This document shows positions 7,372 through 48,598 of a DNA stretch of 64,000 nucleotides, in pieces (the first letter of the stretch is position 1; the number at the start of each line of letters is the position of its first letter). This stretch comes from Antedon mediterranea (lineage: Eukaryota; Echinodermata; Crinoidea; Comatulida; Antedonidae): the NCBI RefSeq assembly GCF_964355755.1, contig NC_092674.1, forward strand, positions 22,348,001-22,412,000, read 5' to 3'. The notes beneath the pieces were generated by a model. The model had not been told where the DNA came from. It did not search any database and was given only the letters and a program-made list of their open reading frames with translations. Position numbers and translations under genes: made by a program.

Positions 7372-7630
7372 CTAGTCATTTATATCAGCTGCTGGCCCTA
7401 CGCCTGTGTGGTAGTTTCCACAACTACAGTTTCTCCTTAGGATATATATTACCCGACCTCTACGATTCTCCCGAGTACGGTTGTACTGGCAATTGTAAAG
7501 AGACTTGTGTACTTCACGTTTGGCTCTTAACCCTTTACTACAAACACATTCTATTGTTAATAATATCTTGACCATTGGCCACCTCCTTTTTCCATTTGCA
7601 GTTTGCTTGAGTATGTTCTTCAGAAGCCAT
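7372..7630 (-). pseudogene. Gene A: six-cysteine small protein, frameshifted
   Basis: Paralogue of A' (16990-17235). The ATG that matches the A' start is at 7630 and begins M-A-S-E-E-H-T with the conserved C-x-W, but that frame ends after about 30 residues. The spacer between the TGG codon and the LTxxCxC segment is 31 bases here and 30 in A', so one inserted base shifted the frame. The remaining frame keeps CVC, YILRRNCSCG and the tail GVGPAADIND. A downstream in-frame ATG (P-M-V-K) could still give a shortened protein, so complete loss is not proven. TATA-like TTTATA at 7679 and CCAATCA near 7699 are in the family position. The donor CAAG|GTAATG follows the stop at 7361. Confidence 0.7.
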
Positions 7631-7957
7631 GATGTCAAAGCATGGGAGTTCAATTACTTTCATTGAAAATCAGCATAATTTATACTTAACCATCAACCAA
7701 TCAACGCAGCTGAATACAGTCTTTTCAAAAAGTATAACCAATTAAACATTGAATTAATAGTAATTTAGAAAATAAGTTTGAGTAAAATATAATTAATGAA
7801 TATGTCAACTAAGTTGAGTCTAACTAACACATTTTCCAGATTTAGTCATTTATGAGTGTTACTACACCTCTACAAGTAATAAAAATCAACCACCACCACC
7901 ACCTTTAAAGATTCAAGAGTTGCGAGAGTTGACAGTATTCATTTTAATTTGTTTATT

Positions 7958-8121
7958 TCTGAGATAGAAGAAGTTTGCTCAATTGTTTTACTTGACCATG
8001 GCCTGATCGAAATCGACGGACTGGCTCACCTTTCCGTATTCTTACGATCAATACGATTTATTAATCATACAATACCAACATTTAATTTGATTTTTAACCG
8101 AGTATACAGTATAATGATACC
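7958..8121 (-). other. Intron and start of 3' exon of gene B
   Basis: The donor AAG|GTATCAT at 8121 lies one base after the stop of gene B. A good acceptor (CTTCTATCTCAG) on the minus strand places the next exon at 7958 and below; it starts AAATAAAC, which contains a polyadenylation-type hexamer. The corresponding acceptor in copy 2 (about 17560) reads ATCTCAT and has lost its AG. Confidence 0.5.
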
Positions 8122-8367
8122 TTAATTCTTTGAAGCGCCTGAACCAGAATGGCTTTTGAATTCTCCACAGTAACAATGTCGACGAAGTATGTTTCTTATA
8201 GGGTATTTTCGGAATTCCAAGCTCCAATAGCAATCCGATCGCCTATGGTCTTCACTTTCGTGATCATTGTCTCGATCACAGCAGCATTCGAGTATTATTT
8301 CGTTGGTACCAGTTTTTTTCCATTTGCAATCTTCATCACGATGCGTCTCAGTCTTGCTGTAGTCCAT
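8122..8367 (-). CDS. Gene B: six-cysteine small protein
   Basis: An 81-residue single-exon coding frame, unrecognised by any family I know. It keeps the family layout: C-K-W near residue 14, a cysteine run (ECCCD) near 28, a histidine-rich acidic middle, D-C-Y-W near 47, then N-I-L-R-R-H-C-Y-C-G and a short tail ending GASKN. No signal peptide or membrane segment is visible. The stop is followed after one base by a splice donor. The ATG at 8367 is supported by the matching (mutated) start in B'. The plus-strand open frame at 8149-8493 is its antisense shadow. The promoter is less clear: TTTATA near 8385 but no nearby extended CCAAT element. Confidence 0.65.
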   Translation of the reverse strand: MDYSKTETHRDEDCKWKKTGTNEIILECCCDRDNDHESEDHRRSDCYWSLEFRKYPIRNILRRHCYCGEFKSHSGSGASKN

Positions 8368-8369
8368 CC

Positions 8370-11300: not shown

Positions 11301-12560
11301 TACAAGAATATTGATTTGTTTGGAAATTCCAATTTTAAGTTAGCAAGTAATTCATTTTGTTATTTAAAAAAATAGTTTTTGTTATTAATCTGAACGTTAA
11401 CGAATTTATTCATTTACAAACTGAAATTATTTATAGGCCTATTATTATTATTTATATTATTATTATTTCATAATTTAGATTGTCAACATACGACAATTGA
11501 ACGAAAATTATTTTTCATTTGGACGGTTGCCAATATACCAAAATTCCAAAATTCCAATCTGTATTACAAAAGAGAAAACCATCTGTCGATAAATAATACC
11601 TTAAAAATTCCAATCCTATAGTTAGCAAGCTATTCGTTTTGTGGTTATTTTTTAAATATTTAAAAAAATATGTTTTCGTATTATTCTACTTTAACGAATT
11701 TATTCATTAATGGACTTAAATTATTTATATTAATATGTTTTAATATATTTCCAAATAATTTAGATTGTTAAAATAGGAAAATTTAACAAAAATTATTTAT
11801 ATCTGTTTCCAGTATACCTACAAAAATGTTAAGAACATTTGAAGTTGGTAAATTTCTTTTTCATATAATACGTTATGGTTTGCGTATGGTAATTATTTTA
11901 GTTGTATTTGTCTGTTTTGGATTGGCCAACCTCTAGCAGTAGCATATGTGCTTAAGAAATGTTTGGTTTTTCCTTGCTTTTTTTACATTCGTTTTAGATT
12001 GTAATGGCAGAAAATTTAAGTCTTAACAAACGTTCTTTACTTATTAATGGACTACAATAAATTAACATCAATTAATACATTACATTTAAAGATGTATTGT
12101 CCCTCTGAAAAAAATAATTATAAAAAAAATGTCTGTTGAATATGCCATTTTAATTTCACATAGGCCTAATAGTTATCCACTTTGACCAAGAATTAGATCG
12201 AAAAAAAAATGTATTTACCCGATAAAATAGTAATTTAAAGCAAACAATCGTCAAATTGGCTGCCAGCCAATGGATTTTTGGTTGAATTTAACCATTTATT
12301 TTGTTATTTTATAAGTGAAAACATTTTTTTCTACGGAAGTGATTAACTTTATTAAAATGACAAAATAATCTATTCAAAGTCTGATTTTATTAATCTTTAT
12401 TTTTCATGTTTTTGGGGGAAAATACATCTTTAAGAATCTAAATAAAGATCGGCTTTTGTTTCATCTGTTGACCTATTTCATATAAGCAATTTAATGTAAT
12501 TTTTTAAAAAATCCTATTAACAAAAACAACACACATACCACAACATGTCCACCGAAAACA
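8370..12560. repeat. Degenerate internal repeats, no gene
   Basis: From about 9200 to 11800 the sequence is built of decayed units. Recurrent phrases are AATTCCAGTTCTA(GCAG/TCCG), CAATTYTAWRGTTAGCAAG, and CTGAACKTTAACGAATTTATT, seen near 9796, 10880, 11391 and 11690. Copy 2 holds only the first part (about 19040-20640). The longest open frames here do not carry family motifs or splice context and I treat them as chance. Confidence 0.6.
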
Positions 12561-12567
12561 TTTCTCG

Positions 12568-13122
12568 TTAGCGGATGCGGCGTGTCCTTCTGGAAGAGCC
12601 AACTGCAATAATAACATTTTTTAAATTATTTTGTAAGTTTTACAAATGTATCCTACTGCACGCATCATATCATCATAACCGCAATTGAACTGAAAAGGTT
12701 TAAACGACATCAACATAGTTCATGAGGTGGAGGGGTGTTGCAATGGCTGGAGTTGTGTTATCAAAAATGTTTACCTCTTGGATGCGGTTAGATTGGGAGG
12801 GGAGTGGTTATTGGGATTGATAAGTCAACATAACTATATTTTTTACTACTGGAAAGGTTTGAAACTATATTTTCGAGTTTGTTTGGAAGAGGGTGGAGGA
12901 ATGCCGAGGTATATCAAATAGATACTGGCTTTAAGATCAATCGTTTCTTCTAGTAGCTTTAGAAAAAAATATATACTTACAGTTCATTGCAGTATTCGGT
13001 CCACGAGTACAGATAGTAGAAACAGCTGGGTAAAATTTTCGTAAGAGGGAATTTACGGATATATAAGCAAACCGAAGCGTATCTTCAGCTATCCTATGCA
13101 TCACTCTAAACAAATTAGCCAT
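12568..13122 (-). CDS. Gene L: two-exon small protein with basic tail
   Basis: Exon 1 (12981-13122) encodes 47 residues starting MANLFRVMHRIA and ending in C-T-R-G-P-N-T-A-M-N, then a phase-1 donor AACT|GTAAGT. The best acceptor (TTATTATTGCAG at 12603-12605) joins in frame to exon 2 (12568-12602), which adds F-G-S-S-R-R-T-R-R-I-R and a stop, giving 58 residues with a strongly basic end. I chose the ATG at 13122 because the longer frame upstream contains the TATA-like box (TATAAC near 13200), with an inverted CCAAT at about 13229. The RGPNTAMN tail matches gene N. Function unknown; the basic end could bind nucleic acid or membranes, but that is speculation. Confidence 0.6.
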
Positions 13123-13229
13123 CTTTTTGTCCTTTGTTACTTTAATTAGTATTGAACTTACTTTAGTAAATAACAAGTGAATAAACCTATCTATGATGTT
13201 ATACATCCATTCGGCCCTAATTTCGGAAA

Positions 13230-14574
13230 CTTATCCAATTACATTTCTACACGTAACTGTTAATTTTCAGACCTACAGTAAGTAACACATTTCGATTCCA
13301 ATTTGATTAATTGAATGACGTTACAGTATTGATCTTGTTGAGATGTAGAATGTAGATTGTTATAGAATCACTAAATAGTAATAATATTCAGTTTGAAATG
13401 GTTTGATGACTTTTCCCATTATTATTATTATTATTATTATTACATTATTATAGTAAAATTATGTAATACAACATAACTGAGATATTTTATTGAAAGACGA
13501 TCTATCATGGTAGTACATGTCATTCTGGAATAAACTGTCTGTCATTCTTTCTATTCCTTTCCAAAGGCTATACAAGTTTCGGATGGTGATGTTGATTTGA
13601 TAATTATAAATTCAAAAATCATTAGGCTTAAATACAATTTTTTGAATGATCAGTTTCTCAAGTTTAATGCTACTCTCAGCTTCAGTGACATGCATTTAAC
13701 CTTCGTCAATATGTACCTCATTACATCTAGTTGTATTCGTTTGTTTTTATTCTATGCTTCGTTGCCCATTATTTCGTTCATTTACCATCGTCTTTGTTTA
13801 TCTACAGTATAATCATGTTCAAATTCTAACCAATATAACTTCATCCTCATTATCACCAGCAAAACAGTTATAACCAACAAAACGGCATTTTTTTCCCTTG
13901 TAATCAACCATTTTAGGCCTCATTACCATAATCAGTATCACTGTTATCATCAACACTAACACCATCAATTAAATCTATCTTATCGACCGGTAATCACTTA
14001 TAATTGTTCGTAATAGTAATTAGTTTTTCATTGATGTCGTCATCGTCATTACAAAATACACAAACAGATTTCCTCCGATTTGAAACAGCATATTTATTAG
14101 ATTGTAACGTTTGTTAGTAACATAGAATTACCCATCATTATTTTTTCTAAATTAACTACTGTCAATAATTTTCAATATCACTGTCTGGTTTATAATTCCG
14201 TGTGCCTGTAAATTATGTTAGTATCTATTCTTCGGAGATCCCACATAAAAGCCAAAGTGGTTCAATGGTCAGTTAATAATGCATATCAAGTAAAAAGTTC
14301 CGAGTTCGAATCCAGGTCAAGCTGATTTTATTCATTCTGACAGATTTATCATTTCTAAATTACGGGTTACTAATTAATTTCCAGAGAGTAAATAAAAAAT
14401 AAATATTGTTGTTGTATGATCCGTATGCCAAAATCTACCGCCTTTATTCATAACCACGTTTCACTACATAATAATTACGTTGAAACTAAACTAATAATAA
14501 CAATAAATATGTTTGAATATTTGTCATTTAATATCGTCGCAAAAATATTATTTTTGAAAATAAGTTGTGAGTAA
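13230..14574. other. Spacer between L and C
   Basis: Sequence shared with copy 2 (22330-23690). It contains an (ATT)n run near 13420 and a tRNA-like unit at 14251. No coding exon is seen. Confidence 0.55.
14251..14325 (+). repeat. tRNA-derived (SINE-like) unit
   Basis: An A-box-like TGGTTCAATGG and a near-perfect B box GTTCGAATCC (14304-14313) are spaced as in a tRNA promoter. The ends do not form a proper acceptor stem, so this is a tRNA-derived relic, not a working tRNA. A second copy lies at 23393 in the duplicated block. Confidence 0.55.
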
Positions 14575-14668: not shown

Positions 14669-14962
14669 TGAAAGAAACATTGGAATATTCATCATAGTTT
14701 ACTTGCTTTAGTCTTTGTTAAATATTCAATTCATTATTTATATTTTATTATGTATATGTTTTATTGAGTCTCATAAATTAATCTACACAGAACCTGGATT
14801 GGCCATCCATAACAAATATGGCAATACATAAATATTTTTTGTTTCTCATTGAATCCTTTACGATCGATTAAAATGATCAAATTTTCATTTTGATATATTA
14901 AAAACTAATTGAAATAATATCTTTAAGTGAGTACACTATTATTTATGTAGACACCACTTACT

Positions 14963-15196
14963 TTAATATAATTGATTAGGTCCTATATTATTGTGAAACT
15001 TTCCACATACGCAGTTTCTTCGTAAAATGTAACGCGTTTGGCCATGGTGGTATGCATATCTGGGCTCTTTAATATAAGAACATGACCTGTGTTCCTCGGT
15101 TTGTATCACTTTACCAGTACCATCGCAATAGCATACCAGAATCCAGGTGTCACCATTTTTAATCCAATCGCATTTTTCAGAGTTATGTTCCATCAT
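14963..15196 (-). CDS. Gene C: six-cysteine small protein, ILRRNCxCG type
   Basis: A 77-residue frame: MMEHNSEKC-D-W at the start, C-Y-C-D-G near 22-26, T-E-E-H-R-S-C-S-Y near 33-41, then R-Y-I-L-R-R-N-C-V-C-G-K-F-H and the tail NNIGPNQLY. Six cysteines are arranged as C, CxC, C, CxC with conserved histidines, so zinc binding or disulfides are both possible. There is no signal peptide. I took the ATG at 15196: the upstream ATG at 15211 is not conserved in C', whereas MMEH is. The stop abuts the donor A|GTAAGT (14961). C' at 24049 is its disrupted duplicate; E and F are close paralogues. Unknown function. Confidence 0.72.
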   Translation of the reverse strand: MMEHNSEKCDWIKNGDTWILVCYCDGTGKVIQTEEHRSCSYIKEPRYAYHHGQTRYILRRNCVCGKFHNNIGPNQLY

Positions 15197-16978: not shown

Positions 16979-16989
16979 CTTGCATGGTA

Positions 16990-17235
16990 CTAGTCATTCA
17001 TATCTGCTGCTGGCCCTACCCCTGATTGGTATTTTCCACAACTACAGTTTCTCCTTAGGATGTAAGATGCCCGACCTCTAGGAATTTGATAGTAGTTGCA
17101 ATTGAAATTAGACTTGTGTTTTTCTGTTTGAACGCCTAAATGTTTACTACATTGACAGTTCCTTGTCAATACTCTTTTACGACCGACCACAGATATCTCC
17201 CATCTGCAAAGTGCGTTAGTATGTTCTTCGTCCAT
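16990..17235 (-). CDS. Gene A': six-cysteine small protein, intact
   Basis: An intact 81-residue frame: MDEEHTNALCRW, R-N-C-Q-C-S-K near 25-31, T-E-K-H-K-S near 36-41, N-C-N-Y-Y, then S-Y-I-L-R-R-N-C-S-C-G-K-Y and the tail GVGPAADMND. The cysteine pattern C, CxC, C, CxC equals that of C, E and F. There is no signal peptide or membrane helix. The stop is followed nine bases later by the donor CAAG|GTAATG. The upstream region has CCAATTAACG near 17300, a weaker version of the family CCAAT element. This is the functional counterpart of frameshifted gene A. Confidence 0.72.
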   Translation of the reverse strand: MDEEHTNALCRWEISVVGRKRVLTRNCQCSKHLGVQTEKHKSNFNCNYYQIPRGRASYILRRNCSCGKYQSGVGPAADMND

Positions 17236-17723
17236 GATGCTAAAGCGTGGAGTGTAAATTACTTCTTTTGAAAATCAGCATAAAGTATATGTAACAATCA
17301 ACCAATTAACGACTGCAACTGAAGAAAGTGTTGTTTTCAAAAGGTACAACCAGCCAATCGAAGGTTGCATAGTCATTTTTTATTTGATAAAAAGTAGTTT
17401 GAATAAAATATAATTTCAGGGTGTTCACGTGGTAAACAACTCAAGTCAGGCCTAACTAAAACACATATTCAATTCAATTTATCATAAACTACCACCACCT
17501 TTAGAAAGTCCAGAGTTGGAAGAGTATAAATAAATGTAATATTTTGTGATTATGAGATAGAAGTTCGCTTAATTGTTTAGTTAATATTTTAAAAAATTCT
17601 TTTACTTGAACAGTAATCGAAATCGACGCACTGGCTCACCCTTCCATATTCTTACGATTGATACGATTTAGTGTTATTAAGGATTTGCAAAAAAAAAAAG
17701 AAGAAATAGCAGTATTATATACC

Positions 17724-18036
17724 TTAATTCTTTGAAGAGTTTGAACCAGAATAGCTTTTAAATTTTCCACAGTAACAGTGTCGACGAAGTATGTTCCTTA
17801 TAGGGTATTTTCGGGATTTTTATTTGAAAAAAAGTAGTTTGAATAAAATATAATTTCAGGGTGTTCACGGTGTTCACGGGATTCAAAGCTCCAATAGCAA
17901 TCTGATCGCCCATGGTCTTCACTTTCGTGATCTTTGTTTCGATTACAGAAACATTCGAGTATTATTTCGTTGGTACCCGTTTTTTTTTCATTTTGCAATC
18001 TTCATCACGATGCGTCTCAGTCTTGCTGTAGTGCAT
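17724..18036 (-). pseudogene. Gene B': broken duplicate of gene B
   Basis: The start matching B is at 18036 (ATGCACTACAGC versus ATGGACTACAGC). An altered A-run after the D-C-K codons shifts the frame, so the TGG codon of C-K-W is lost. Farther on, about 60 bases (17817-17879) interrupt the region before the ILRRH segment. That insert is nearly the same as 17381-17437 nearby (TAGTTTGAATAAAATATAA and the GTGTTCACG end), so it is a templated insertion from a few hundred bases away. The tail codes for an altered end, and the acceptor of its 3' exon is mutated as well. Clearly a pseudogene. Confidence 0.78.
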
Positions 18037-18431: not shown

Positions 18432-18624
18432 TAAAACGACCTAATTAATTTGCGTGAGATTGCCAGCAACAGAAATAAGTGGCTTTTGTTATTTTGAATC
18501 TTTATTTTTACGTTATTTTATATTTTTTGTTGTTGTAGGATGCATGCATGTAAGAAGGTATCAGATTTTGTAAATCCACAGTGCGTGGTTTTGTTACATT
18601 TTTTGGAATAAAGTTACCTATATA
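18432..18624. mobile_element. 193-bp retroposed insertion with 12-bp target duplication
   Basis: The 12-base word TAATAAATAACT flanks the segment on both sides (18420-18431 and 18625-18636) and occurs once at the matching empty site in copy 1 (8697-8708). A long exact target duplication is typical of LINE-mediated retroposition. The insert carries AATAAAG near its right end. I recognise no coding sequence or tRNA head in it. Confidence 0.75.
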
Positions 18625-18639
18625 TAATAAATAACTGTA

Positions 18640-20840: not shown

Positions 20841-20843
20841 TTA

Positions 20844-21725
20844 GGGTATGTTCAGACTCACGGAGTTACGGTGGAGTTATCTACGCAAGGCGTACGGTAA
20901 TCCGTGGCGTTAAAAGTCAAGGTGTTCAGACACAACGATTAGCATTCCAAACGTCTTGCGTTTAAAGCGGAAGTTCCGTCATACCGAAACGGCCGATGGG
21001 ATACATACACAATAACAACAACAGAGAGCTGAGAGTGACACGCGCGAAAGTTTACAACACTAGCTAGGCCTAGCAATATAATACAATGTTACCTTCAAAT
21101 GTAATGGTTTTTTTGCCGATTTTTTTTGCAAATCCTTACAGAAGATAGTAATTTCGAACATAATTATTACACGGACAATGACTTTGCCATTATTTGTATG
21201 ATTTTAATTAATTTTGTGAAATCATGTCACCGACGCCAACTTCGTCAGGAAGAATTTTGCAGTTTAGATGCAATTTCTTTAAAAACAGCCATCTTGTTGC
21301 AGGCGCTAGCTTTCCAATTCCTAATTTCTATCTTGTCTATAAATTCAGGGCTGCCCCATAATGAAATCAAATCAGCCACTTCTGTACTTTTCCATGTAAC
21401 ACGTTTCATTTTAATTCGAATGTTGCTGTTGATCTAGGCTAGCTCGAGGAATAGCTATATTGTTTTGCTATTAAAAAAAAACCTCGCGAATAGACTGCTG
21501 CTAATTGCGGTCGTGTCTTTTCATTGGCTGACGTTGACCGGAGGTTGAAATCACTGATGCATCAATGGATTAGCCTTATGAAATCTACCCTCTCCCGCTG
21601 GAGTTATTAACGCCACTGGCGCGGAGTAACAGCTCCCTAACGCTAATCCGCGGCATGGTTCAGACACAAAAATATGTACGCCGCGTACATAACTCCACCG
21701 TAACTCCGTGAGTCTGAACATACCC
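20844..21725. mobile_element. PIF/Harbinger-like DNA element, 882 bp
   Basis: Perfect 37-base terminal inverted repeats (20844-20880 and 21689-21725), which begin GGGTATGTTCAGACTCACGG and extend imperfectly inward, with a 3-bp TTA target duplication (20841-20843, 21726-21728). The empty site is visible in copy 1 near 12630. The TTA duplication and the internal Myb/SANT-like frame are both typical of PIF/Harbinger elements. It lacks a transposase, so it is non-autonomous. It sits in the intron side of gene L'. Confidence 0.88.
21245..21409 (-). pseudogene. Myb/SANT-like fragment inside the Harbinger element
   Basis: A 54-residue frame beginning MKRVTWKSTEVADLISLWG and continuing to a KMAVFKEIASKLQ end. 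The spaced tryptophans (W6, W18, W33), the acidic or Leu-rich first helix and the final V-F-K-E-I-A-x-x-L helix resemble the Myb/SANT-like DNA-binding protein that accompanies PIF/Harbinger transposases. It ends in a TGA after the third-helix region, so it is a truncated relic rather than a complete protein. Confidence 0.6.
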
Positions 21726-22081
21726 TTAGTACAGAGTTTTACAAATCTGTCCTCTACTGCACGCATCATATCAGTAACCGCAATTGAACTGAAAAGGTTT
21801 AAACGACATCAAAATAGTTCATGGGGTGGAGGGATGTGGATTGTTGCAAGGACTGGGGCTGTGTGCTATCAAAGTGTTTACTTCTTGGAGGCGGTTGCAT
21901 TGGGAGGGAGTGATTATTAGGATTGTCAACATAACCATAGTTTTTACTACTGGGAAGGGTTGAAACTACATTTCCGAGTTTGTTTGGAAGAGGGTGAGGG
22001 ATTGACGAGGTATATCAAATAGATACTGGCTTTAAGATCAATCGTTTATTCTAGTAGCTTTAGGAAACATTACATACTTAC

Positions 22082-22220
22082 TGTTCATTGCAGTATTCGG
22101 TCCACGAGTACAGATACTACGAACTGTCGGGTAAGCTCGTAAGATGAAATGTACGGATACATAAGCAAACCGAAGTGTATCACCAGCTATCCTATACATC
22201 ACTCTAAACAAATTAGCCAT
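22082..22220 (-). pseudogene. Gene L': exon 1 retained, exon 2 missing
   Basis: Exon 1 encodes 46 residues (MANLFRVMYRIAGDTLRF ... RSICTRGPNTAMN), 1 codon shorter than L, and keeps the phase-1 donor AACA|GTAAGT at 22081. The region that should hold exon 2 is deleted: copy 2 jumps from repeats at about 20640 to sequence matching 12620, and a Harbinger element lies in the remaining intron. Reading through the donor would add a short peptide ending ATRIND. It may still be expressed with a different end, so pseudogene status is probable, not certain. Confidence 0.55.
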
Positions 22221-24048: not shown

Positions 24049-24876
24049 TTATTGATTAGGTCCTATGCCACTATGAAAGTTTCCACATACGCAGTTTCGT
24101 CGTAAAATGTAACGCGTTTGGCCATAGTGTGTATATCTGCGCTCTTTAAAGCTCAGGTACAGGCATGAATTTTAAATATAATATTTGGTTAATTGTACAT
24201 AAATCAAATATTTGTAACAGAAATCGAAACGAAAAAACATGAATTTCCCTTAATATGGTATCAAATACAAAATTTGGCAAAATTCTTCCATAAAAACCAG
24301 GAAGACTTTTTTTCAGTAGTTAGGTAGTTAACCTAATGTAATAACATATCTGGTGACTCCCTAGATGGTGAAAAAAGATGGTGGATATACGGTGGATAAT
24401 TTTTGCTATAGCATGAAAATAAAAATCTGAAGTTGAATAAAAATATCAGAAATGTAATATTCAAGTTATATTACCTATATTTAGTCATCTGATAACATTT
24501 TTTACCACACCGTTTATTTTTCATAGCTTTTTTAAATTCCTCTCTATTTACAAAATGTGTGTACAAAAGAATAGAGATTTTACTGTGTAATTTGAACTAT
24601 CCCCCCACTGATAAGAAAGTGCTTATTTTCAAAAAGCTCGTGTAACACAAATAAAATCCCAAAAATTATGAAACATAGGGGAAACTATAGATCGATAATT
24701 ATTGGAATGTATGATCAATAGAAATTTTTTGCCCGCACCTGGCCTTTAATATAAGAACATGACCTGTGTTCCTCGGTTTGAATCACTTTACCAGTACCAC
24801 CATCGCAATAGCAAACCAGAATCCAGGTTTTTTCATTTTTAATCCAATCGCATTTTTCAGAGATATGTTCCATCAT
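24049..24876 (-). pseudogene. Gene C': duplicate of C split by a transposon
   Basis: The two halves match gene C: MMEHISEKCDW through S-C-S-Y-I-K on the right side, and R-Y-T-H-Y-G-Q-T-R-Y-I-L-R-R-N-C-V-C-G through GIGPNQ on the left. A 594-bp element (24150-24743) with a 6-bp CTTTAA duplication separates them. The flanking codons are in register, so precise loss of the element plus one duplication would leave a 75-codon frame. The insertion therefore came late, when the gene was otherwise intact. The CCAAT/TATA promoter and splice donor (A|GTAAGT at 24038) remain. Confidence 0.82.
24150..24743. mobile_element. Non-autonomous DNA element inside gene C', 594 bp
   Basis: Imperfect terminal inverted repeats CAGGTACAGGC (left) and GCCCGCACCTG (right; CAGGTGCGGGC reversed), flanked by CTTTAA on both sides. 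Gene C at 15072 shows the uninterrupted site. The CAGG ends recall hAT elements, but hAT usually makes 8-bp duplications and only 6 bp are exact here. There is no transposase frame. Confidence 0.75.
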
Positions 24877-25566: not shown

Positions 25567-25803
25567 TTATTGAATGTTTGGTCCTATACCAGAATGATAT
25601 TTTCCACATATACAGTTTCGACGCAATATATAACGCACTTTACTGTAGTACTGAAAAGAATGTCTATAATAAGAGCAGGTATCAGACCGATGAACTTCTG
25701 TTTTTATTTCATTACGAACGCCATTGCAATAGCAAATCAATCTCCAAGTTTTACCGTTTCTATTCCGTCGTTGCCAGGAGCAAGTAATTGATTTATGTAA
25801 CAT
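25567..25803 (-). CDS. Gene E: six-cysteine small protein
   Basis: A 78-residue frame starting MLHKSITCSW, then L-I-C-Y-C-N-G near 22-28, T-E-V-H-R-S-D-T-C-S-Y-Y in the middle, and V-R-Y-I-L-R-R-N-C-I-C-G-K-Y-H with the tail SGIGPNIQ. The cysteine layout equals C, F and A'. The longer frame starting at 25854 is rejected because its first codons contain the TATA box itself (TGTATAAAG). TATA and CCAAT elements are in the family positions, predicting a leader of only 10-15 bases. No counterpart exists in copy 1, where the interval is deleted. Function unknown. Confidence 0.72.
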   Translation of the reverse strand: MLHKSITCSWQRRNRNGKTWRLICYCNGVRNEIKTEVHRSDTCSYYRHSFQYYSKVRYILRRNCICGKYHSGIGPNIQ

Positions 25804-27073: not shown

Positions 27074-27634
27074 CTGAAAGAAAATAATAATAATAATTCT
27101 ATTACATATTAATTTTTTCTGTATTAAAAAAAAGTGTTTTTAAATGATTATAAAACTAGAAATAGAAATTATTCGCCGTAGAATTTTAGTTTTAATTTAA
27201 TTTTTATATTAGGCCCATAATAATAATACTTGTCATTAATGTGACCAACAAAGAGCCGCGGATCATACTTTGACCAATCATAAGTTTTATTTGATCGCTC
27301 GTCGTCATCGACTTTCTAAAGTACTCATGGAATATGGCTAAAAAATAAACAAATAAACAAATAACATTGAAGTTTTCTTCCAACAACACCAGTATGCATG
27401 TCGACGCCATTTTACTTAGTTTACTTAGTGAGTTGAGACATAGTAATGAAATTATTCATGTAATTTATAATATGAATGCTTAAGTGTATTTTTTAGATAA
27501 ATAGAATATGACCGGGTCACATTCTTGCCGTTATTGGAAACTGCCTTTGCAACTTATCTCTCTTTTTGCTTTGAAAATAATTAAAGGACAAAGCAATATA
27601 CAATACTCATGTTGACGTATCACTTACCGTGGAA

Positions 27635-27871
27635 TCACTGATTTGGTCCTATACCACTATGGAATTTTTCACATAAACAATTTCGTCTCAGTATATAACG
27701 CACTTGGCCATAGTTATAAAGTTTTATTTCTTTAGAATAAGAACATAAAGGACCCCAATGTTCCTCCGTTTTTATTGCTTTAGGAATACCGGTACCATCA
27801 CAATAGCAAGCCAGTGTCCATGTGTATATGTTATTTCTTAGCCAATCACATTGGGCATTTGCATGTGCCAT
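27635..27871 (-). CDS. Gene F: six-cysteine small protein
   Basis: A 78-residue frame: MAHANAQCDW, A-C-Y-C-D-G near 21-26, K-T-E-E-H-W-G-P-L-C-S-Y, then R-Y-I-L-R-R-N-C-L-C-E-K-F-H with the tail SGIGPNQ. It differs from its paralogues in having Glu for Gly after the second CxC. The start at 27871 fits the aligned starts of C and E and the TATA box 37 bases upstream; the longer frame to 27940 runs through the promoter. The stop is seven bases before a strong donor. Function unknown. Confidence 0.72.
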   Translation of the reverse strand: MAHANAQCDWLRNNIYTWTLACYCDGTGIPKAIKTEEHWGPLCSYSKEIKLYNYGQVRYILRRNCLCEKFHSGIGPNQ

Positions 27872-28764: not shown

Positions 28765-28965
28765 TTAATTGCTTGGCGTAGTTGATCCCTTTGCAGAATG
28801 ATATACTTTCGGTACACTGCTTCGTAATATTTGTTCAGAACTCTTGTACTGTACAGCACTAGATTGCTGTTCACTTACATCCTCCTCCTCCTCATCATCA
28901 GGTTCTTCCTGTTTAGTTTCTTCTTCCTCATGTTCACCAATCTTCTTTTGCTGATAACTTGACAT
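28765..28965 (-). CDS. Gene P: Glu-rich small protein with the family tail
   Basis: A 66-residue frame. Residues 1-35 are almost wholly charged (E-H-E-E-E-E-T-K and D-D-E-E-E-E-D runs), and residues 46-66 read ILRSSVPKVYHSAKGSTTPSN. That tail aligns without gaps with those of the Gly-rich genes M and O, although the bodies have nothing in common. The stop TAA is four bases before the donor TTAG|GTAGGG (28760), the same arrangement as in the six-cysteine genes. There is no signal peptide and the protein is likely disordered. Unknown function. Confidence 0.68.
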   Translation of the reverse strand: MSSYQQKKIGEHEEEETKQEEPDDEEEEDVSEQQSSAVQYKSSEQILRSSVPKVYHSAKGSTTPSN

Positions 28966-30249: not shown

Positions 30250-30977
30250 TTAGAGGATGATGCAAGAACAACAATCTCCACTTCTAAATAAAACAATGTA
30301 TCATCATTTATTTTGGCTTGTTAGATGTAGAAACGAAGTATCCAGTTAATATGTTTATTTAACCCATACATTATAATACAATTATTAAAAAATGTATAAT
30401 TATAGAAATTAACCATTAAAATGTTCTAAAACGATATAGTATTCTTCTCACTATAAAATAATAGCCTCTTTTAAACTAACGATTTAGCTGCCTATGTTAA
30501 AAGTTATAGTTTTGTTTTTCTATCACGCATGCTAGGCCTAAGTAATGTTTATTTAAAAATGGATCTGTTTTTAAGACAGAAATCAGCAGACGCGAGATCG
30601 AATACTGGCCCAAACATTTTTGCGAAAGTACATTTTTTCTTCATCTAAACGTTATTTCGATACACTTAATGTTTCTATTACAATTTTATTCTAATATTCT
30701 TGCATTATTCCTAAAGTAGTAATATATACACTCTGCTATTGTACTATGGAATACACTTATATAATTATATCTCTCTAGGTTAAGGAGAATTTTGTTCCTT
30801 CTTTCGCCCTAACGTACATAAAATTTCTCCCTAACGGTCAATTTTTTTTTATCCTGAACTCTATGGCTAGTCAGTATGAATAATGTAGTTTTCTTACCTA
30901 TCCTCACCGCAATTCCCACATGTATTTGATCCTCTGACGTTAACCGAATTGGATGCTGAATAAGTCACAGGTGTCAT
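30250..30977 (-). CDS. Gene J: 37-residue protein with a CaaX prenylation box
   Basis: Exon 1 (30898-30977) encodes MTPVTYSASNSVNVRG then S-N-T-C-G-N-C-G-E-D and ends in phase 2 at ATAG|GTAAGA. Exon 2 (30250-30283) follows a clear acceptor (TTGTTTTATTTAG) and adds R-S-G-D-C-C-S-C-I-I-L before the stop. CIIL is a textbook CaaX box; a final leucine favours geranylgeranylation, and the two upstream cysteines could be palmitoylated. Both statements are established for the motif; modification of this protein is inferred. If the intron were retained, translation would stop at the TAA formed by the donor itself. The GSNT..N.GED segment links it to H, I and K. Confidence 0.62.
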
Positions 30978-34319: not shown

Positions 34320-35043
34320 TCATTGCTTGTAATTAGCAAATATCATAGATAAAGCTAGGAGGAGTGACGGGTGTTCATAAACGTGTTGAGACTGCCAATT
34401 AACGAATCGCACTTTGGTTTCACATCTCGTCGGGGCTGTTTTCGTTGTAGTTTGTTTGGTGATATTCAGGTTGATAATTCCAAAGACTTTATACAGTCTA
34501 GCCAGGTTAATGTAAATATGTTTCTTCCTTAGAGAATAGTACACCACCAACCACTAAAGAGTTTTTCAAAATATCAATTGTCAGTTTGAATTTTTACAAA
34601 ACAAAAAATGGTACTCAAAAACGATATGCGTCATCGTAGGTTGTCGCCAATCAAAATAATCATAAATTTAAATTGACATTATATATTTGAATTAAATAAA
34701 TATATTTTACACTGCTCTTATTCTTGGATCAGAAACATTTAATATTTCATTTTTATTTAAATATAACAAAAAGAAGATAAGAAATAGTTTATTAACCGGT
34801 TTCACAATAATAAGAAACATTTTAAGCCTAGTTCACATTCCAGGTTAGAATGATCAGTCTTACTCAAAAGTGTGTGTTTCTTTCATTTTACTATTATACA
34901 TATATTATATTATGTTTTTACCTTGAAGAAGACGACGACGTTTGATCCTCCCCTTCATTCTCATCAGTATTCGATCCTTTACCTTTGTGAAAATTAATTC
35001 CGATATTTTCTTGTAATGTTTCGAGTCCTAATGTGGTCGCCAT
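34320..35043 (-). CDS. Gene H: two-exon protein with INLNIT/RCETKV exon 2
   Basis: Exon 1 (34922-35043) encodes 40 residues: MATTLGLETLQENIGINF, then H-K-G-K-G-S-N-T-D-E-N-E-G-E-D-Q-T and five serines. It ends in phase 2 at CAAG|GTAAAAA. The acceptor TATTCTCTAAG at 34528 continues the frame into exon 2 (34320-34527; 68 codons): KKHIYINLARLYKVFG, I-I-N-L-N-I-T, R-C-E-T-K-V, and a hydrophobic end (SLLLALSMIF). Total 109 residues. Exon 2 is homologous to that of gene I, while the last 60 bases of exon 1 are almost identical to gene K. This is direct evidence of exon exchange. No known domain is recognised. Confidence 0.62.
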
Positions 35044-36184: not shown

Positions 36185-36731
36185 TTATTTCTTAATATTT
36201 CTTATTGGTTTTCCTGGGTGTTTTTCAAGCATATGCTTTTTTAGTTCAGCTTTGGACGTACACACCATTGTGCAATAACCACATGAGAAGGAGGAAGGAC
36301 CGCTGCCACTCAATCTAAATATTAAAAGATGTGATGTTAATCTGTGATTTTGCATGTACAGATACAATAATTATCGTCGTTAAAAATGGTTGCCTTGTCT
36401 TGATGATTTAATAAAACATATTGAATACTTATAATAAATTGCAACTGAACAAATAATAATAATTAATTAATACATTATACAAAATAATAAAGTAGATTGT
36501 TTATTGTATATTATAATAACAAAAAGGGGAGTATATAACCAATCAACAACCAATGATTTTGTATATAAAAATTACAGATTCTTGACCGTGTTGATAATAA
36601 TGCATGAAAAGTTTAAAATCTACCTACATTCCTTGATTCATAGCAGTATTTGGTGTTCTCTGGTCTGTATAATTTCCAGGAGTACTTTCTCTTAATCTGT
36701 TCTTATTTTGAGTAGGTCTTTGTTGAGACAT
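36185..36731 (-). CDS. Gene N: two-exon protein with a C2H2 zinc finger
   Basis: Exon 1 (36628-36731) encodes MSQQRPTQNKNRLRESTPG, N-Y-T-D-Q-R-T-P-N-T-A-M-N-Q-G and ends in phase 2 at GGAAT|GTAGGT. The acceptor TTTAATATTTAG at 36315 joins exactly in frame to exon 2 (36185-36314), giving 77 residues. Exon 2 has one classical C2H2 finger: F-S-C-G-Y-C, 12 residues, then H-M-L-E-K-H (C-x2-C-x12-H-x4-H), followed by a basic end. Single fingers can bind DNA, RNA or protein. The exon 1 tail L-R-E-S-T-P...R-T-P-N-T-A-M-N aligns with the family motif and gene L. The element CCAATCTCTCAGAATGA lies at 36820. Confidence 0.7.
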
Positions 36732-38824: not shown

Positions 38825-39358
38825 TCAGTCATTGTAAAGTTTACCGGAATTCATACACGTTTTGTAGGCTGCTAAATAACGAATCCACACTTTGGTTTCA
38901 CATCTTGACGTGGTTGTTTGCATTGTAGTTTTCAAGGTGATATTCAGGTTGATATTTCCAATGATTATATAGCCAGAATAATTTAGCATAAATGTGTTTC
39001 TTCTTTACAGGATAGTACACCAGCTTAATAGTAAAACATAAAATCAACTGCTTTTATTTTCTTATCATCAACAATAATATAGGCCTATACACCGTAACCA
39101 TTTAATAAAAGATAAACATTAACAAACTAAAGAATAATATTGAGATAAAAATGTGAGGTCTTGTGTAATTAGATAGAACTATAAAGTAAAGAGGTCAGTT
39201 TGAAAAAAACATGCTGAATTTGACATTTTATATAATAATACAGTTTCACATAAATCCATATCATATGGTACAATATTATGTTCTTACCTAGAAGAAGAAG
39301 AAGAAGAAGAAGACTTGGTATCCTCGTCTTCATTCGGATCGGTGTTTGGATTAGGCAT
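38825..39358 (-). CDS. Gene I: two-exon protein, acidic/poly-Ser head and INLNIT exon 2
   Basis: Exon 1 (39288-39358) encodes MPNPNTDPNEDEDTK followed by eight serines (TCT repeats) and ends in phase 2 at TAG|GTAAGA. Exon 2 (38825-39002) continues in frame: R-N-T-F-M-L-N-Y-S-G, I-N-L-N-I-T, R-C-E-T-K-V, then W-I-R-Y-L-A-A-Y-K-T-C. Total 82 residues. The acceptor is weak, with two options three bases apart that keep the frame. It shares exon 2 with gene H, except that a one-base difference after RCETKV puts the ends in different frames. The plus-strand arginine-run frame at 39278 is the antisense of the serine run. Confidence 0.55.
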
Positions 39359-41699: not shown

Positions 41700-41982
41700 T
41701 TATAGCACTGTGCAGCATGAAGATGGACTACCTTGATCTCTGAAATGTAGAGATTTAGTATTTAATATAAAGGTCATATTGATTTTGTATATAGGCAATT
41801 TGGCTTAGATTGCAATTTCCTTTTATTTTAAATAATGAAAACATTGAAAAACACTACATAAACATTTATATTTCTTACCCAGTCGTTTGATCCTCCCCTT
41901 CATTCCCATCAGTATTCGATCCTTTACCTTTGTGAAAATTAATTCCTATCTGTAAAGTCTGTAGTATTAAATTTTTCGCCAT
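41700..41982 (-). CDS. Gene K: 47-residue protein with a CaaX prenylation box
   Basis: Exon 1 (41879-41982) encodes MAKNLILQTLQIGINF, H-K-G-K-G-S-N-T-D-G-N-E-G-E-D-Q-T-T and ends in phase 2 at CTGG|GTAAGA. The acceptor CTCTACATTTCAG at 41740 adds exon 2 (41700-41739): G-D-Q-G-S-P-S-S-C-C-T-V-L, then stop. CTVL is a CaaX box of the geranylgeranyl type with a neighbouring cysteine for possible palmitoylation. The intron is only 139 bases. Exon 1 is near-identical to gene H from G-I-N-F through E-D-Q-T, but exon 2 matches the gene J type. There is no signal peptide, so a cytosolic protein anchored to membranes is the simplest reading. Confidence 0.68.
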
Positions 41983-42950: not shown

Positions 42951-42974
42951 CACAAATTACCTGATGATAATTAA

Positions 42975-43202
42975 TTAATTGCTCGGATTATTTGGGCCCT
43001 TTGATGGATGACATCCAGAAGGTACATTGCTTCTTAGTGTCGATGAAGATTTTCCGTGTTGATTTCCAGCAGGACAGTGCTGGCCTTTCGACCCACCATT
43101 TCCGCCGCTTTTACCGCCACCTCCACCTTTGCCGCCACCGCCACCTTTTCCACAGCCTCCACCCTTGCCACCACCTCCGTTACCTCCTTTTCCACTTGGC
43201 AT
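42975..43202 (-). CDS. Gene M: Gly/Lys-rich small protein with the family tail
   Basis: A 75-residue frame. Residues 1-43 are glycine-lysine repeats (MPSGKGGNGGGGKGGGCGK...), and the last 30 read H-C-P-A-G-N-Q-H-G-K then S-S-S-T-L-R-S-N-V-P-S-G-C-H-P-S-K-G-P-N-N-P-S-N. The tail is the conserved part; it aligns without gaps with P and O. I start at the ATG at 43202, since the extension to 43211 has no ATG. The stop is 14 bases before the donor CATCAG|GTAATT (42960). The plus-strand frames over this region are antisense shadows. Low-complexity glycine body; function unknown. Confidence 0.68.
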   Translation of the reverse strand: MPSGKGGNGGGGKGGGCGKGGGGGKGGGGGKSGGNGGSKGQHCPAGNQHGKSSSTLRSNVPSGCHPSKGPNNPSN

Positions 43203-44984: not shown

Positions 44985-46480
44985 CATGTCTATTTGAGTG
45001 TTTTTGACGTCATATTGCCGATATTGGATTGGTATTTATAGATTCGAAGATTCTCGTATAGTAACTGTAAATTACGAATGTCTATTTTCGAATGTATTGA
45101 TTATCAACATTATTTAGAATTGACACTATTTAATGTAATTTTAAGAATATATATTTATTATTATACAAAATGTACACATTACAGTATACATCTATTTAGT
45201 CAATTGTGTAAGGATAAGTTATATTAGAAGGTTATAATAATAATAATAATACGAATTTGTAATACGCCAATTCCAGCAGACGTCATTATAGTACGTCGAT
45301 AATTATTGTGTCGATAACGGATGTCCCCACACATGGTATCTTTAGTTAGAGGCACACATTTCTATATTTTTTCTTTTATATACCTTTTTCGTGTATTTTA
45401 ATGTTAATTTAGACGAGTAAGTAAACAACGTACAACGTTTTATACTTAAGAACAATGTATTCGTTTATTTTGAATTCCGTCTACTTTTTCATTGAAATAC
45501 ACAACTTAGCGTCAATCTGTTTTGTTAAAGGATTTTTTTTTTAAATTCTGGTAACCTTACTTTATTAAAGATGGTTTGTAATTATGGGAACTTAGGGAAT
45601 ATGCAGATATCACGTTAATTCTTGAAAGCCAAACTTCAGGAGAATATACAGTGTTTATTGTAGAGCATTAGCTTATAAACATAACACATTTTACAGTATT
45701 AACATTTTTTGTGTGCTCAAACGCATCATTGTACATTCAATTCAACCAGTATAAAGAGCTAGGTTTTTCATGTCACTGTAGCCTGACTCTTTTGACCTCT
45801 ATACCAATAGAAATTATTCAGGTTATTAAAGTCAATGACTGCAAATGGTTGACTTGTATATAATGAAGTACAATAGAACATATCTCCTTTGTATTTTCTG
45901 CATTTTTCGTTTGTAAACTTAAAACGTTTAGATAAACAGAAGTTTGCCACCATCTCTTAATATTTCATTACCACATACTTGACAGACTGACACAAAAATT
46001 ATATGTTTATATTCAATAAGAAAAAAATGATGATTGAAAGATGAAGTTTTAGCATGCTCTATATAATGCTATTAAAGTTCTAATGTGGCACCTAGTTTCA
46101 ACTTTTGTTTATTTTGTAGGTAGAAAATATATTAAAACTCTAAATCTGTATTGTTTATTAATCTTTTATCTTTTATATATATTCTAGGCCTACTTATATT
46201 GCTTCTTTTCTTGTGTTTTGCTGTAATTCGTTTAATAAGATAAACCAGCTCGTAGTAAATGCTATCTAAAATACTTGTTTTTAAATTATTATCATAGTAT
46301 ATGATATAATATCATGGTATTATTATATTATTATTATTATTATACTCATATGGTTTTTCATCTGAAGCAAAAATTAACTATTGTTTGGGTGAGGAAATAT
46401 AACCATCTGTAAGTTCTGTCAATGGATAATAACTCGATGTACTGTAGACTTGGGTTACCATGACTACCACATCCTTTTTT
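44985..46480. repeat. Second related segment, gene lost
   Basis: Matches the sequence above gene O: TTTTTGACGTCATATTGCCGATATTGGATTGGTATTTATAGATTCGAAGATTC at about 45000-45060, ACGTCGATAATTATTGTGT at 45295, GTAGCCTGACTCTTTTGACC at 45778. Homology stops at about 44985, just where the O-type TATA box and gene would begin, so the coding part was deleted or never copied. Confidence 0.65.
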
Positions 46481-46489
46481 TTTTTCTAA

Positions 46490-48390
46490 AATAAATAAAC
46501 AGTTAGATTTTAATTTATTTTGCAGATATTATTATGTAAATTTACAAACAAATTTTTGATTATTAGTTTAAAAATATGTTTAAAAATATTTGGATATACA
46601 TATTTTACTATATTAGTCTTTATAGTAATACAGTATAATTCTGGAATTTCATACTGTTCTAAATTCAATACTAGAAGTATGCAAAATGAATGAATGAACG
46701 GTTCATCATTCTGTAAATAAACTTTTGGGAATTTTAACCACGCAATTAATTAAATTAATAATAATAGTCGTTCCATTATAGCAGAAAATACATTTACATT
46801 TTGTACATGTTGTTTGTATCAAAAATTATAGGATAAATAAAACGTACTCATATATTGAAGAAAAAACAATATAAATATTCATTTTAGGAACTTTATTTAT
46901 TTATAGCCTACATCTCATAATAAATTGAATGTCGACGATTTAAAGGCCTATGACTAAAACACATGAAAAATACAATGTACCTACTTCTCTGGGTTAGATC
47001 ACAGTCTCGTTCAAAAATTAGAATATGGATTACAATATCATTAACTTCGTTTGAATCCAACATTAAATGTATGTTTTCTTTGTGTGGTGTTATATATAAA
47101 GGCCTTACATCTATATCTTATATCTAATCTATCCTAATGCTTATGTATATTTCGCTATATTCTCGATGTACTTAAAGTAGTTTTTAAATATTTACTTCTT
47201 TAATTTCATGTTAAACCAGGCTGGCCCAAAATTAGTAAAAAATAAATAAATTTTACAAGGTTAAAAAACAAATCATTGTTTAAATAATAATAATATTGAT
47301 GATAACAAAAAAAAAACTATAATATGTCTTATGTGCACTAAAGGTTTGTGCATTTATATGCAGTATATTTGTTATATATTGTAAAATGTCATGTACTTGT
47401 TGTAAGGTTAATATTGGAAGTACAAATTATATAAACCAATTTACTTTGTCAATGGTGTACACTGAACTAATGTTCATAAAACTATATACAATTATTATAC
47501 AACAATATCTCAAAGTTATTCTTCCATATAATTATGTTGGATGTAACAAAGAAAAAAAATTTATTTCAAAGTTTATTCTACAAGTTCTGGACCATGTCAA
47601 ATAAAAAGTACAGAAGTCAGGATCATATTGAAGTTGTTTCTAGTGAAGTATATCTGCAGTCCCATGTAGTTCAGTTTAGCAAATTATCTGGAATCCAACC
47701 ACAACCACTGTTGCATTTCATTCTACCTAAAGTAACAGATAGATAATCAACATTTAGAATAATAATACAATTTAAATAAATGTAGACTCATGTTGATACA
47801 ATTAACTATTTTAACATTAGATATTATTTTCGATTTAAGATGTATTGACCCAAAAACATGAAAAATAAAGATTATTACAATCAGACTTAAAAAAAAAAAT
47901 CTTTATTATATAATTGTAATATGAAATAGCCTATTCAATTTTTTTAAATCCAAATGTCTTTGTCACAGAGGCATATTCAGCACAACTTGTTTTCCATGGG
48001 TACAACATATTTATTCAACCAACAGAAAAGCATGATTCAACGGATAATGTTGATATCCTTTTTTCAATGGTAATTCTATGTTAATTATTTGTTGCAAATC
48101 TTTTAACATTTTGAGAAAGATTTGTTTATTATTTAAAAATAAAAGAAACATAAACTAGGCCTCCCTTTCATTTTTCTTTGAATGTAGCCTATGCCTATGA
48201 TGTGGTATAACAGTCTAGGTTAATCGAATACACTTTCAGAATCACAGATCAATTAATTATCAAATCGTTGGATAATTTGAAAATTGAAAATACAGTTAAA
48301 CCAATTAAATATTTGTATATATGCCTACTCTTCAAACCTAAGCCTAAACCCCCTCTTTTTGTGTTTCTTAATTAATAGAAGACCAACATA
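46490..48390. other. AT-rich spacer, no supported gene
   Basis: Several short open frames without family motifs. A possible 3' exon of O should lie below the donor at 48393, but I cannot identify it. Confidence 0.4.
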
Positions 48391-48400
48391 TACCTGGTGA

Positions 48401-48598
48401 CTAATTTTTTGAAGTGTTTGAGCCCTTCGACTGATGCGATCCAGAAGGTGCATTGCCTCTTAATGTCGATGAAGATTGACCATAATGACCACCACATTGG
48501 CCTCTCATCCCGCCATATCCACCATTTCCACCATTTCCACCATTTCCACAGCCGTTACCACGACCTCCTTTTCCTCCACTTCCTTTTCCACCTGGCAT
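48401..48598 (-). CDS. Gene O: Gly-rich small protein with the family tail
   Basis: A 65-residue frame: MPGGKGSGGKGGRGNG and further Gly-Asn repeats, then S-S-S-T-L-R-G-N-A-P-S-G-S-H-Q-S-K-G-S-N-T-S-K-N. Paralogue of M; the body has changed from GGK to GGN/GGR while the tail is held. The stop is seven bases before the donor ACCAG|GTATAT (48393). The TATA-like CATTTATAGAAATT near 48693 matches M. Function unknown. Confidence 0.68.
   Translation of the reverse strand: MPGGKGSGGKGGRGNGCGNGGNGGNGGYGGMRGQCGGHYGQSSSTLRGNAPSGSHQSKGSNTSKN

Follow-up and report, generated by a model that had tools for sequence, protein, structure and literature searches.

Organization of the Array

The window (the whole stretch of DNA analyzed, 64,000 nt) carries 18 small exon-1 loci between 7.4 and 48.6 kb, all on the minus strand, and 15 of them are intact at exon 1. 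This count agrees with the initial annotation, which had described a one-strand array of at least 18 tiny genes. The bodies of the predicted proteins differ by class, being six-Cys, basic, Glu-rich, Gly-rich, or Gly/Lys-rich. Of the broken loci, C7 is frameshifted, and C18 and C24 are interrupted by inserts. Each locus is labeled with a class letter and its position in kb, and slashes mark the exon-intron boundary at donors.

7361..7630, minus strand: C7 exon 1, six-Cys, frame broken, tail YILRRNCSCGNYHTGVGPAADIND, donor GCAAG/GTAATG
8121..8367, minus strand: C8, six-Cys, 81 aa, stop then donor TTAAG/GTATCA
12981..13122, minus strand: L13, basic class exon 1, end TRGPNTAMN, donor /GTAAGT
14962..15193, minus strand: C15, six-Cys, 76 aa, stop then donor TTAAA/GTAAGT
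16979..17235, minus strand: C17, six-Cys, 81 aa, stop then donor GCAAG/GTAATG
17720..18036, minus strand: C18, six-Cys, broken copy containing 53 bases that recur at 17377-17429
22082..22220, minus strand: L22, basic class exon 1, tail ILRAYPTVRSICTRGPNTAMN, donor /GTAAGT
24052..24873, minus strand: C24, six-Cys, copy interrupted by ~550 inserted bases
25567..25803, minus strand: C25, six-Cys, 78 aa with stop, candidate donor AGCAC/GTGAGG 7 bases past the start of the stop
27628..27871, minus strand: C27, six-Cys, 78 aa, stop then donor CCACG/GTAAGT
28765..28965, minus strand: P28, Glu-rich body with tail ILRSSVPKVYHSAKGSTTPSN and a stop, weak donor candidates (6 of 9) downstream
30898..30977, minus strand: K31 exon 1, partial tail VRGSNTCGNCGED, phase-2 donor
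30250..30283, minus strand: K31 predicted exon 2, CIIL then stop
34922..35043, minus strand: H35 exon 1, tail TLQENIGINFHKGKGSNTDEN, phase-2 donor
34529..34553, minus strand: H35 predicted exon 2, CTIL then stop
36628..36731, minus strand: N36 exon 1, tail RLRESTPGNYTDQRTPNTAMN, phase-2 donor GGAAT/GTAGGT (the alternative donor TGTAG/GTAGAT would yield a stop)
36185..36314, minus strand: N36 predicted exon 2, C2H2 finger (PF00096, E 2.4e-4)
39288..39358, minus strand: J39 exon 1, partial tail PNTDPNEDED, Ser run, phase-2 donor
39005..39023, minus strand: J39 predicted exon 2, CTIL then stop
41879..41982, minus strand: H42 exon 1, tail TLQIGINFHKGKGSNTDGN, phase-2 donor ACTGG/GTAAGA (a better-scoring GT sits within the tail)
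41700..41739, minus strand: H42 predicted exon 2, CTVL then stop
42961..43202, minus strand: M43, Gly/Lys-rich body, tail TLRSNVPSGCHPSKGPNNPSN, stop then donor ATCAG/GTAATT
48394..48598, minus strand: O48, Gly-rich body, tail TLRGNAPSGSHQSKGSNTSKN, stop then donor ACCAG/GTATAT

Self-comparison of the window reveals direct tandem duplication. The segment at 6.8-10.6 kb resembles that at 16.2-20.7 kb, and the segment at 12.6-15.7 kb resembles that at 21.7-26.2 kb; four locus pairs arose from these block duplications (C7/C17, C8/C18, L13/L22, and C15/C24). The raw sequence was searched by eye for further members outside 12001-13499, 18501-27999, and 58501-64000, and the count of members may thus be incomplete. 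Inspection by eye also brought up a minus-strand frame at 32459 (MTAIIMSILRWVSGGVKPG, donor CCAG/GTAGAG) and, near 33.3 and 45.0 kb, stretches resembling promoters; none of these is counted among the 18 loci.

The Shared Tail

The tail has the approximate consensus [TI]LR-x-[NS]-x-P-x6-[KR]-G-[PS]-N-T-x-x-N and lies beside a splice donor. The seven tails originally quoted were all located, on the minus strand, in open frames and inside the interval proposed for the array; the description of a first exon ending at or just after the tail, with divergent bodies and second exons, is likewise supported. Ungapped alignment over all 21 columns is possible for six loci (L22, N36, P28, H35, M43, and O48). 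In L13 and H42 the match is strong over the [KR]G[PS]NT half, but the LR part aligns only with a gap; the eight six-Cys loci need about one gap, and the tail is partial in K31 and J39.

The statistical weight of the tail was assessed with position-specific scoring matrices (PSSMs) in a leave-one-class-out design covering five body classes, together with 100 dinucleotide shuffles of the window. Among 37,587 open positions, the held-out tail of each of the five classes was outranked only by training tails and their paralogues. The shuffled-sequence control that had been proposed for the tail alignment came out in its favor, as none of the 100 shuffles reached the held-out score in any of the five tests, a result to be read with the fact that the tails were chosen from the same window for their likeness, for which the test corrects only in part. 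Held-out scores were 18.6 for L, 26.1 for N (raised because NTAMN is common to N and L), 32.0 for M (28.0 for O), 29.0 for P, and 22.2 for H, vs. shuffle maxima of 16.4, 16.7, 15.7, 17.6, and 16.0 for L, N, M, P, and H, respectively, with L having the narrowest margin. A profile built from all classes gave 12 minus-strand matches above 10 bits, all within the array and six of them training tails, and a single match above that level on the plus strand (10.2 bits).

The link between the six-Cys tail and those of the other classes is only suggestive at the level of sequence. When the six-Cys class was left out of training, a gapped profile retrieved from it only C24 at E 0.098, C7 at E 0.78, and C25 at E 2.6; in the reverse direction, a profile built from six-Cys tails did not find the other classes. 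One ancestral gene for all classes, as initially envisaged, hence does not emerge from these comparisons. In the tail block of H35 and H42, the first 63 bases differ once, not synonymously, and similarity drops on both flanks, as if the tail had been copied as a module.

Promoters, Donors, and Selection

A CCAAT box, which we take to be of the NF-Y type, precedes 15 of the 18 ATGs, compared with 29-31% of control ATGs (1,173 on the plus and 1,181 on the minus strand), and a loosely defined CCAAT-then-TATA pair is found at 14 of 18 loci vs. 12-14% of control ATGs. With a strict definition of the pair, the figures are 11/18 vs. 111/1,173 (plus) and 114/1,181 (minus); since four locus pairs stem from block duplication, the 18 loci are not independent and these counts overstate the enrichment. 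In the 11 strict-pair loci the ATG lies 43-159 bases downstream of the paired TATA box. C8, C18, and O48 lack CCAAT at -160 to -25, and in O48 the element occurs farther upstream than this stretch. The six-mer CCAATC is present in 11 of 14 representative promoters vs. 11.8% of background windows, its uncorrected p of 1.6e-8 being the lowest among six-mers present in at least six promoters.

A donor scoring at least 6 of 9 was found no more than 20 bases from the stop in all eight intact genes whose stop lies in exon 1 vs. 14 of 92 control ORFs; at a score of at least 7 of 9, the proportions are 6/8 and 2/92. A scan for CCAAT, TATA, ATG, open frame, and donor in succession, designed after the array was known, returned 24 minus-strand rows vs. 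two plus-strand rows and missed seven of the 18 loci. Of the minus-strand rows, five lie outside the array loci; the rest are 11 of the 18 loci plus alternative starts or frames at such loci.

Estimated substitution rates place some six-Cys paralogues under purifying selection (dN and dS of 0.246 and 1.262 for C15/C27, 0.393 and 1.277 for C15/C25, and 0.405 and 0.819 for C25/C27). Other pairs look neutral, namely L13/L22 (0.138 and 0.125) and C7/C17 (0.259 and 0.266).

Predicted Second Exons

Four predicted phase-2 second exons, those of K31, H35, J39, and H42, end in phase with C-a-a-L, the C terminus expected of a geranylgeranylated CaaX protein. These exons were spotted by eye and tested afterwards: in the control, four of 99 donor contexts reached a C-a-a-L end, three of which are the array's own CaaX exons. 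Further CaaX-like ends are CFHL for L13 and CNLL for N36; prediction of second exons found no convincing exon 2 for L13 or L22. Likeness between CaaX exons was reached by 0/500 shuffles for H35-J39, 2/500 for K31-J39, and 14/500 for K31-H35, and kinship of the H42 exon with the others was not demonstrable (41 to 165 of 500 shuffles).

The second exon of N36 matches PF00096 with 21.8 bits, under the 25.2 cut-off, and shows the spacing C-x2-C-x12-H-x4-H by eye. A relationship between this finger exon and the CaaX exons was tested and did not reach significance (34 to 196 of 500 shuffles for DNA; 64, 97, 404, and 1,582 of 2,000 for protein, two of these comparisons lying at 3-5%). The earlier proposal of exon replacement is supported, by prediction only, for exon 2, where a CaaX exon, a C2H2-finger exon, or a stop inside exon 1 may follow the same tail.

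Searches for Relatives

Pfam matches of five six-Cys proteins (SWIRM, SWIM, DUF1922, and Recombinase) were rejected as chance level, the best E being 0.053. Among nine other gene models (all but L22), Pfam returned only the N36 finger and chance matches for P28; the four CaaX models gave no match at E up to 1. In the PDB, the best E was 0.59 with one six-Cys protein, and the six-Cys alignment had no match. Among 5.8 billion proteins, neither the six-Cys alignment (A1; 831 candidates) nor an alignment of 15 proteins (A2; 1,060 candidates) found a relative at E up to 10, a negative that says little if, as may be the case, the collection holds few such animals. AlphaFold2 modeled A1 at a mean pLDDT of 50, and the all-beta outline of this model was given no weight. 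There was no Rfam match at gathering scores, and no tRNA was found. Among the open-licence papers searched, no description of such an array was listed; crinoid genomes, TAGGCCTA, and the epidermal differentiation complex (EDC) were covered as further topics. Matches in ten scanned ORFs (nine flanking, one at 21.2 kb) were limited to a weak Myb/SANT hit and, at 63628-63795, an AMP-binding_C exon; S100A genes, beside which simple EDC genes lie, were not among them.

Possible Origin and Function

On balance we lean, by a little, toward a lineage-restricted tandem orphan family of very small genes, whose small products would be intracellular and combine a common docking tail with ends that can be exchanged. 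Each gene would have its own promoter, mostly with the CCAAT and TATA pair, and a first exon ending in or just after the common tail beside the donor, to which a predicted second exon would add a CaaX box in four genes and a C2H2 finger in one. The tail may dock on one common partner, and the variable head or second exon may set place or activity through a membrane anchor, metal binding, or an acidic or Gly/Lys-rich surface. Tandem duplication would enlarge the array, and the tail would gain new bodies when recombination or gene conversion takes place around it and the intron. It appears rather unlikely that the array is a modular diversity system for intracellular proteins, in which the docking tail is a cassette copied among neighbors by gene conversion and joined again and again to new heads and second exons (membrane anchor, zinc finger, metal-binding module) under one promoter type.

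The neighboring Gly-rich, Glu-rich, and Cys-rich genes, with their short conserved motif and TATA promoters, might instead form a structural-protein cluster working like the EDC. Their small products, biased in composition, would then be co-expressed, and the conserved tail would serve assembly or cross-linking instead of docking a regulator. The same pattern is described for simple EDC genes (PMC4245816), but there exon 1 is noncoding and a single exon carries the coding sequence, whereas exon 1 of the array is predicted to be coding and some of its genes to end in a CaaX box or zinc finger, and we regard this explanation as doubtful. An improbable alternative of similar standing is that several small families lie side by side, the likeness of their tails being convergent or due to gene conversion of short stretches, without one ancestor. 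The marginal retrieval of the six-Cys tail, the failure of the reverse search, and the H35/H42 block that looks copied without its flanks would fit such an assemblage, but five body classes carry the tail in the same place beside a donor, with similar promoters, on one strand.

That the array consists for the most part of copies in decay, or of noncoding first exons that have promoters of their own and incidental reading frames, seems very improbable. Three of 18 loci are broken and dN is close to dS in L13/L22; dN is nevertheless below dS in C15, C25, and C27, the tail is kept at the protein level across unrelated bodies, and Rfam gave no match. If the array is real, it would be an orphan family that keeps a short tail beside an intron constant while everything else is exchanged, and a natural case of exon-level recombination producing new small proteins; it would also allow a direct test of gene origin from one promoter-plus-tail unit.

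Comparison with Known Systems

The initial statement that no described family has this design stands only in part: it agrees with the sequence searches made, and is qualified by two systems, simple EDC (SEDC) genes and aphid cassette effectors, that share the design idea. Some G-protein gamma subunits end in CTIL or CIIL, and the array resembles these and other short CaaX proteins in its small proteins with a predicted CTIL or CIIL end; it differs in that its four CaaX models have no Pfam match at E up to 1. As for C2H2 zinc fingers, the below-cut-off match in N36 would be one lone finger in a very small predicted protein.

SEDC genes of amniotes are small and clustered, with a shared exon structure, a TATA box, and short conserved terminal motifs on bodies of very different composition; exon 1 is noncoding, exon 2 encodes the whole protein, and the N-terminal motif is MSYxxxxQQCKQPCQPPP (PMC4245816). 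Clustered small genes, a short motif, TATA boxes, and divergent bodies are also seen in the array. In contrast, its models place the ATG in a first exon predicted to be coding, its motif is another one, and CaaX and zinc-finger exons are predicted. The SEDC motif does not occur in the 15 intact exon-1 proteins, MSSYQQKK of P28 being a short resemblance.

The cassette effectors of the pea aphid (KQY and KHI) belong to a multigene family in which a conserved cassette is joined to divergent coding parts; this cassette is a signal peptide, one representative gene has 37 exons over 45.7 kb, and most loci lie scattered (PMC7495047). Over the first 28 residues, the highest 9-residue Kyte-Doolittle mean is 1.78 for L22 and at most 1.44 for the others of the 15 intact exon-1 proteins. 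Compared with the aphid effectors, the common part of the array is the tail, and its genes are compact and clustered.

Layout of the array and its surroundings

The initial annotation had proposed at least 18 tiny genes on a single strand, and 18 exon-1 loci could indeed be located, all of them minus-strand and spread over 7.4-48.6 kb. They are labelled by a class letter and their position in kb.

Loci of the array by class, with the nearby domain-bearing exon
C7, C8, C15, C17, C18, C24, C25, C27; minus; six-Cys body (eight loci)
L13, L22; minus; basic body
P28; minus; Glu-rich body
M43, O48; minus; Gly-rich body
K31, H35, J39, H42; minus; short body and a predicted exon with a C-terminal prenylation (CaaX) box
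N36; minus; predicted C2H2 second exon
63628-63795; minus; AMP-binding_C exon of acyl-CoA synthetase type (Pfam E 1e-5), upstream of the array and in the same direction

Blocks have been duplicated in tandem, the 6.8-10.6 kb region resembling 16.2-20.7 kb and the 12.6-15.7 kb region resembling 21.7-26.2 kb. C7 contains a frame break, C18 is broken and harbors at 17817-17869 a recurrence of the 53-base stretch 17377-17429 (98% identical, about 440 bases apart), and C24 is interrupted by an insert of some 550 bases; therefore, 15 of the 18 loci look intact. Array-like promoter stretches noted by eye on the minus strand at 32459, ~33.3 kb and ~45.0 kb, one with a short frame ending in a donor, may be additional members or relics.

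GC content across the window, taken in 2-kb windows, is 24-36%, which makes it AT-rich; it is free of N, and its longest stop-to-stop frame among those listed is at most 134 codons. It looks eukaryotic, judging from its short exons, GTAAGT-like donors and the AMP-binding_C exon. Searches of the window for tRNAs and, at gathering scores, for Rfam families returned no match. The palindrome TAGGCCTA is present in 18 copies where base composition would predict 0.45, and tandem repeats lie at 475-714, 59077-59580 and 61174-62048 (unit lengths include 15, 104 and 173 bases). Two blocks, 52937-53743 and 54317-55032, are 72% identical, the first holding a short plus-strand frame that starts MAEIGTNSTASDDENGR. 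A candidate two-exon gene outside the array (plus strand, 55990-56134 and ~57127, exons joined by eye) is rich in Lys, Glu and Ser and matches none of the Pfam families at E up to 1. A weak Myb/SANT-like match at 21248-21433, minus (PF13837, E 0.0017, below cut-off), is perhaps a transposon remnant.

Promoters and splice donors

Between -160 and -25, a CCAAT box precedes 15 of the 18 ATGs (all except C8, C18 and O48), a TATA-like word 14 and a loose CCAAT-then-TATA pair 14, counts that are not independent because the loci are partly duplicates of one another. Among control ATGs (1,173 plus, 1,181 minus) the corresponding frequencies are 29-31%, 39-40% and 12-14%. When the TATA word and the spacing were defined strictly, 11/18 array ATGs had the pair, versus 111/1,173 plus and 114/1,181 minus controls. 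CCAATC, which has the lowest p among six-mers present in at least six of 14 representative promoters, occurs in 11 of these versus 11.8% of background windows (p 1.6e-8 before correction). A scan for CCAAT, TATA, ATG, frame and donor, designed with the array already seen, yielded 24 hits on the minus strand (11 of the 18 array loci, eight additional start sites or frames within array loci, and five elsewhere) and two on the plus strand.

A test of splice donors gave a cleaner control. In all eight intact genes that stop in exon 1 (C8, C15, C17, C25, C27, P28, M43, O48), a donor scoring at least 6 out of 9 lies no more than 20 bases past the first base of the stop codon, and in six of them the top score is at least 7; among 92 control frames of at least 40 residues, these scores are reached in 14 and two.

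The tail motif

The tail, a short motif at or near the end of exon 1, was modelled from one ungapped example per class (L22, N36, M43 with O48, P28, H35), each class being left out in turn. In a ranking of 37,587 open positions from the two strands, nothing scored above a left-out tail except training tails and two of their paralogues, H42 and L13 (for O48, also M43, which was held out together with it). The likeness passed the shuffled-sequence control: in all five tests the held-out score was reached in 0 of 100 dinucleotide shuffles, for tails that had been chosen from the same window in the initial annotation. L passed by the smallest margin, scoring 18.6 where the shuffles peaked at 16.4, and the N score is raised by NTAMN, common to N and L. 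An all-class profile gave 12 minus-strand matches above 10 bits, all within the array and six of them training tails, and a single plus-strand match (10.2). The six-Cys tails belong less surely with the others: when they were left out of the training set of a gapped profile, C24 was matched at E 0.098, C7 at 0.78 and C25 at 2.6; a profile built from the six-Cys tails missed those of the other classes.

Possible modular exchange and predicted second exons

H35 and H42 have in common a 63-base tail block with one, amino-acid-changing, difference, beyond which identity drops to 25-71% in 30-column windows. The simplest reading of this pattern is that the tail was recently copied between the two loci; strong constraint on the bases themselves would be an alternative explanation of the block. 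No other observation in the array hints as directly at modular exchange. A GT with a donor score of 7 of 9 lies inside the H42 tail, with the same bases in H35 (41884-41952 in H42, 34937-35005 in H35, minus), and may permit alternative splicing.

In K31, H35, J39 and H42, splicing from a phase-2 donor that follows the tail region to an acceptor farther downstream would add 6 to 13 in-frame residues, with predicted ends CIIL, CTIL, CTIL and CTVL, respectively. These exons were spotted by eye and tested afterwards; a CaaX-type end was reached in 4/99 control donor contexts, three of these being the array's own CaaX exons. In shuffles, the second exons of H35 and J39 are clearly alike (0/500 as good), followed by K31-J39 (2/500) and K31-H35 (14/500), and that of H42 has no demonstrable kinship with the other three (41, 70 and 165 of 500). 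Further CaaX-like ends are reachable for L13 (CFHL) and N36 (CNLL). The phase-2 continuation of N36 leads to a predicted C2H2 finger (PF00096, E 2.4e-4, below cut-off), and an alternative donor there would yield a stop. A search for second exons of L13 and L22 gave none that was convincing.

Selection and proposed products

Among six-Cys genes, dN/dS (NG86, own script) was 0.246/1.262 for C15/C27, 0.393/1.277 for C15/C25, 0.405/0.819 for C25/C27, 0.627/1.881 for C17/C27, 0.665/1.147 for C8/C27 and, with few changes, 0.046/0.108 for the first part of C15/C24. Values were 0.095/0.375 for H35/H42 and 0.317/0.436 for M43/O48, the latter from a low-complexity alignment. L13/L22, at 0.138/0.125, and C7/C17, at 0.259/0.266 over the part that can be compared, appear to evolve neutrally.

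The array may encode small proteins that stay inside the cell and carry the tail as a shared docking element, a proposal based on the absence of strongly hydrophobic starts in the 15 intact exon-1 proteins (highest 9-residue mean 1.78, L22), the predicted prenylation of the K31, H35, J39 and H42 products, and the invariant residues of the five intact six-Cys proteins. These five Cys and two His (residues C8, C23, C38, C61, C63, H3 and H35 in the numbering of the C15 protein) would suit metal binding if the proteins are cytosolic.

Comparison with known systems

The claim that no described family has this design is right in part. Searches of Pfam, PDB and 5.8 billion proteins, collections that may hold few kin organisms, yielded no sequence relative, but the design idea recurs in the simple EDC genes of amniotes and in aphid cassette effectors (PMC7495047). 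Of the defining features of these systems, one, the EDC N-terminal motif, is missing from the 15 intact exon-1 proteins. Simple EDC genes are described as small neighbours that have a TATA box in common, along with their exon structure and terminal motifs, and differ in composition (PMC4245816), and it is these genes and the aphid cassette effectors that come closest to the array in design.
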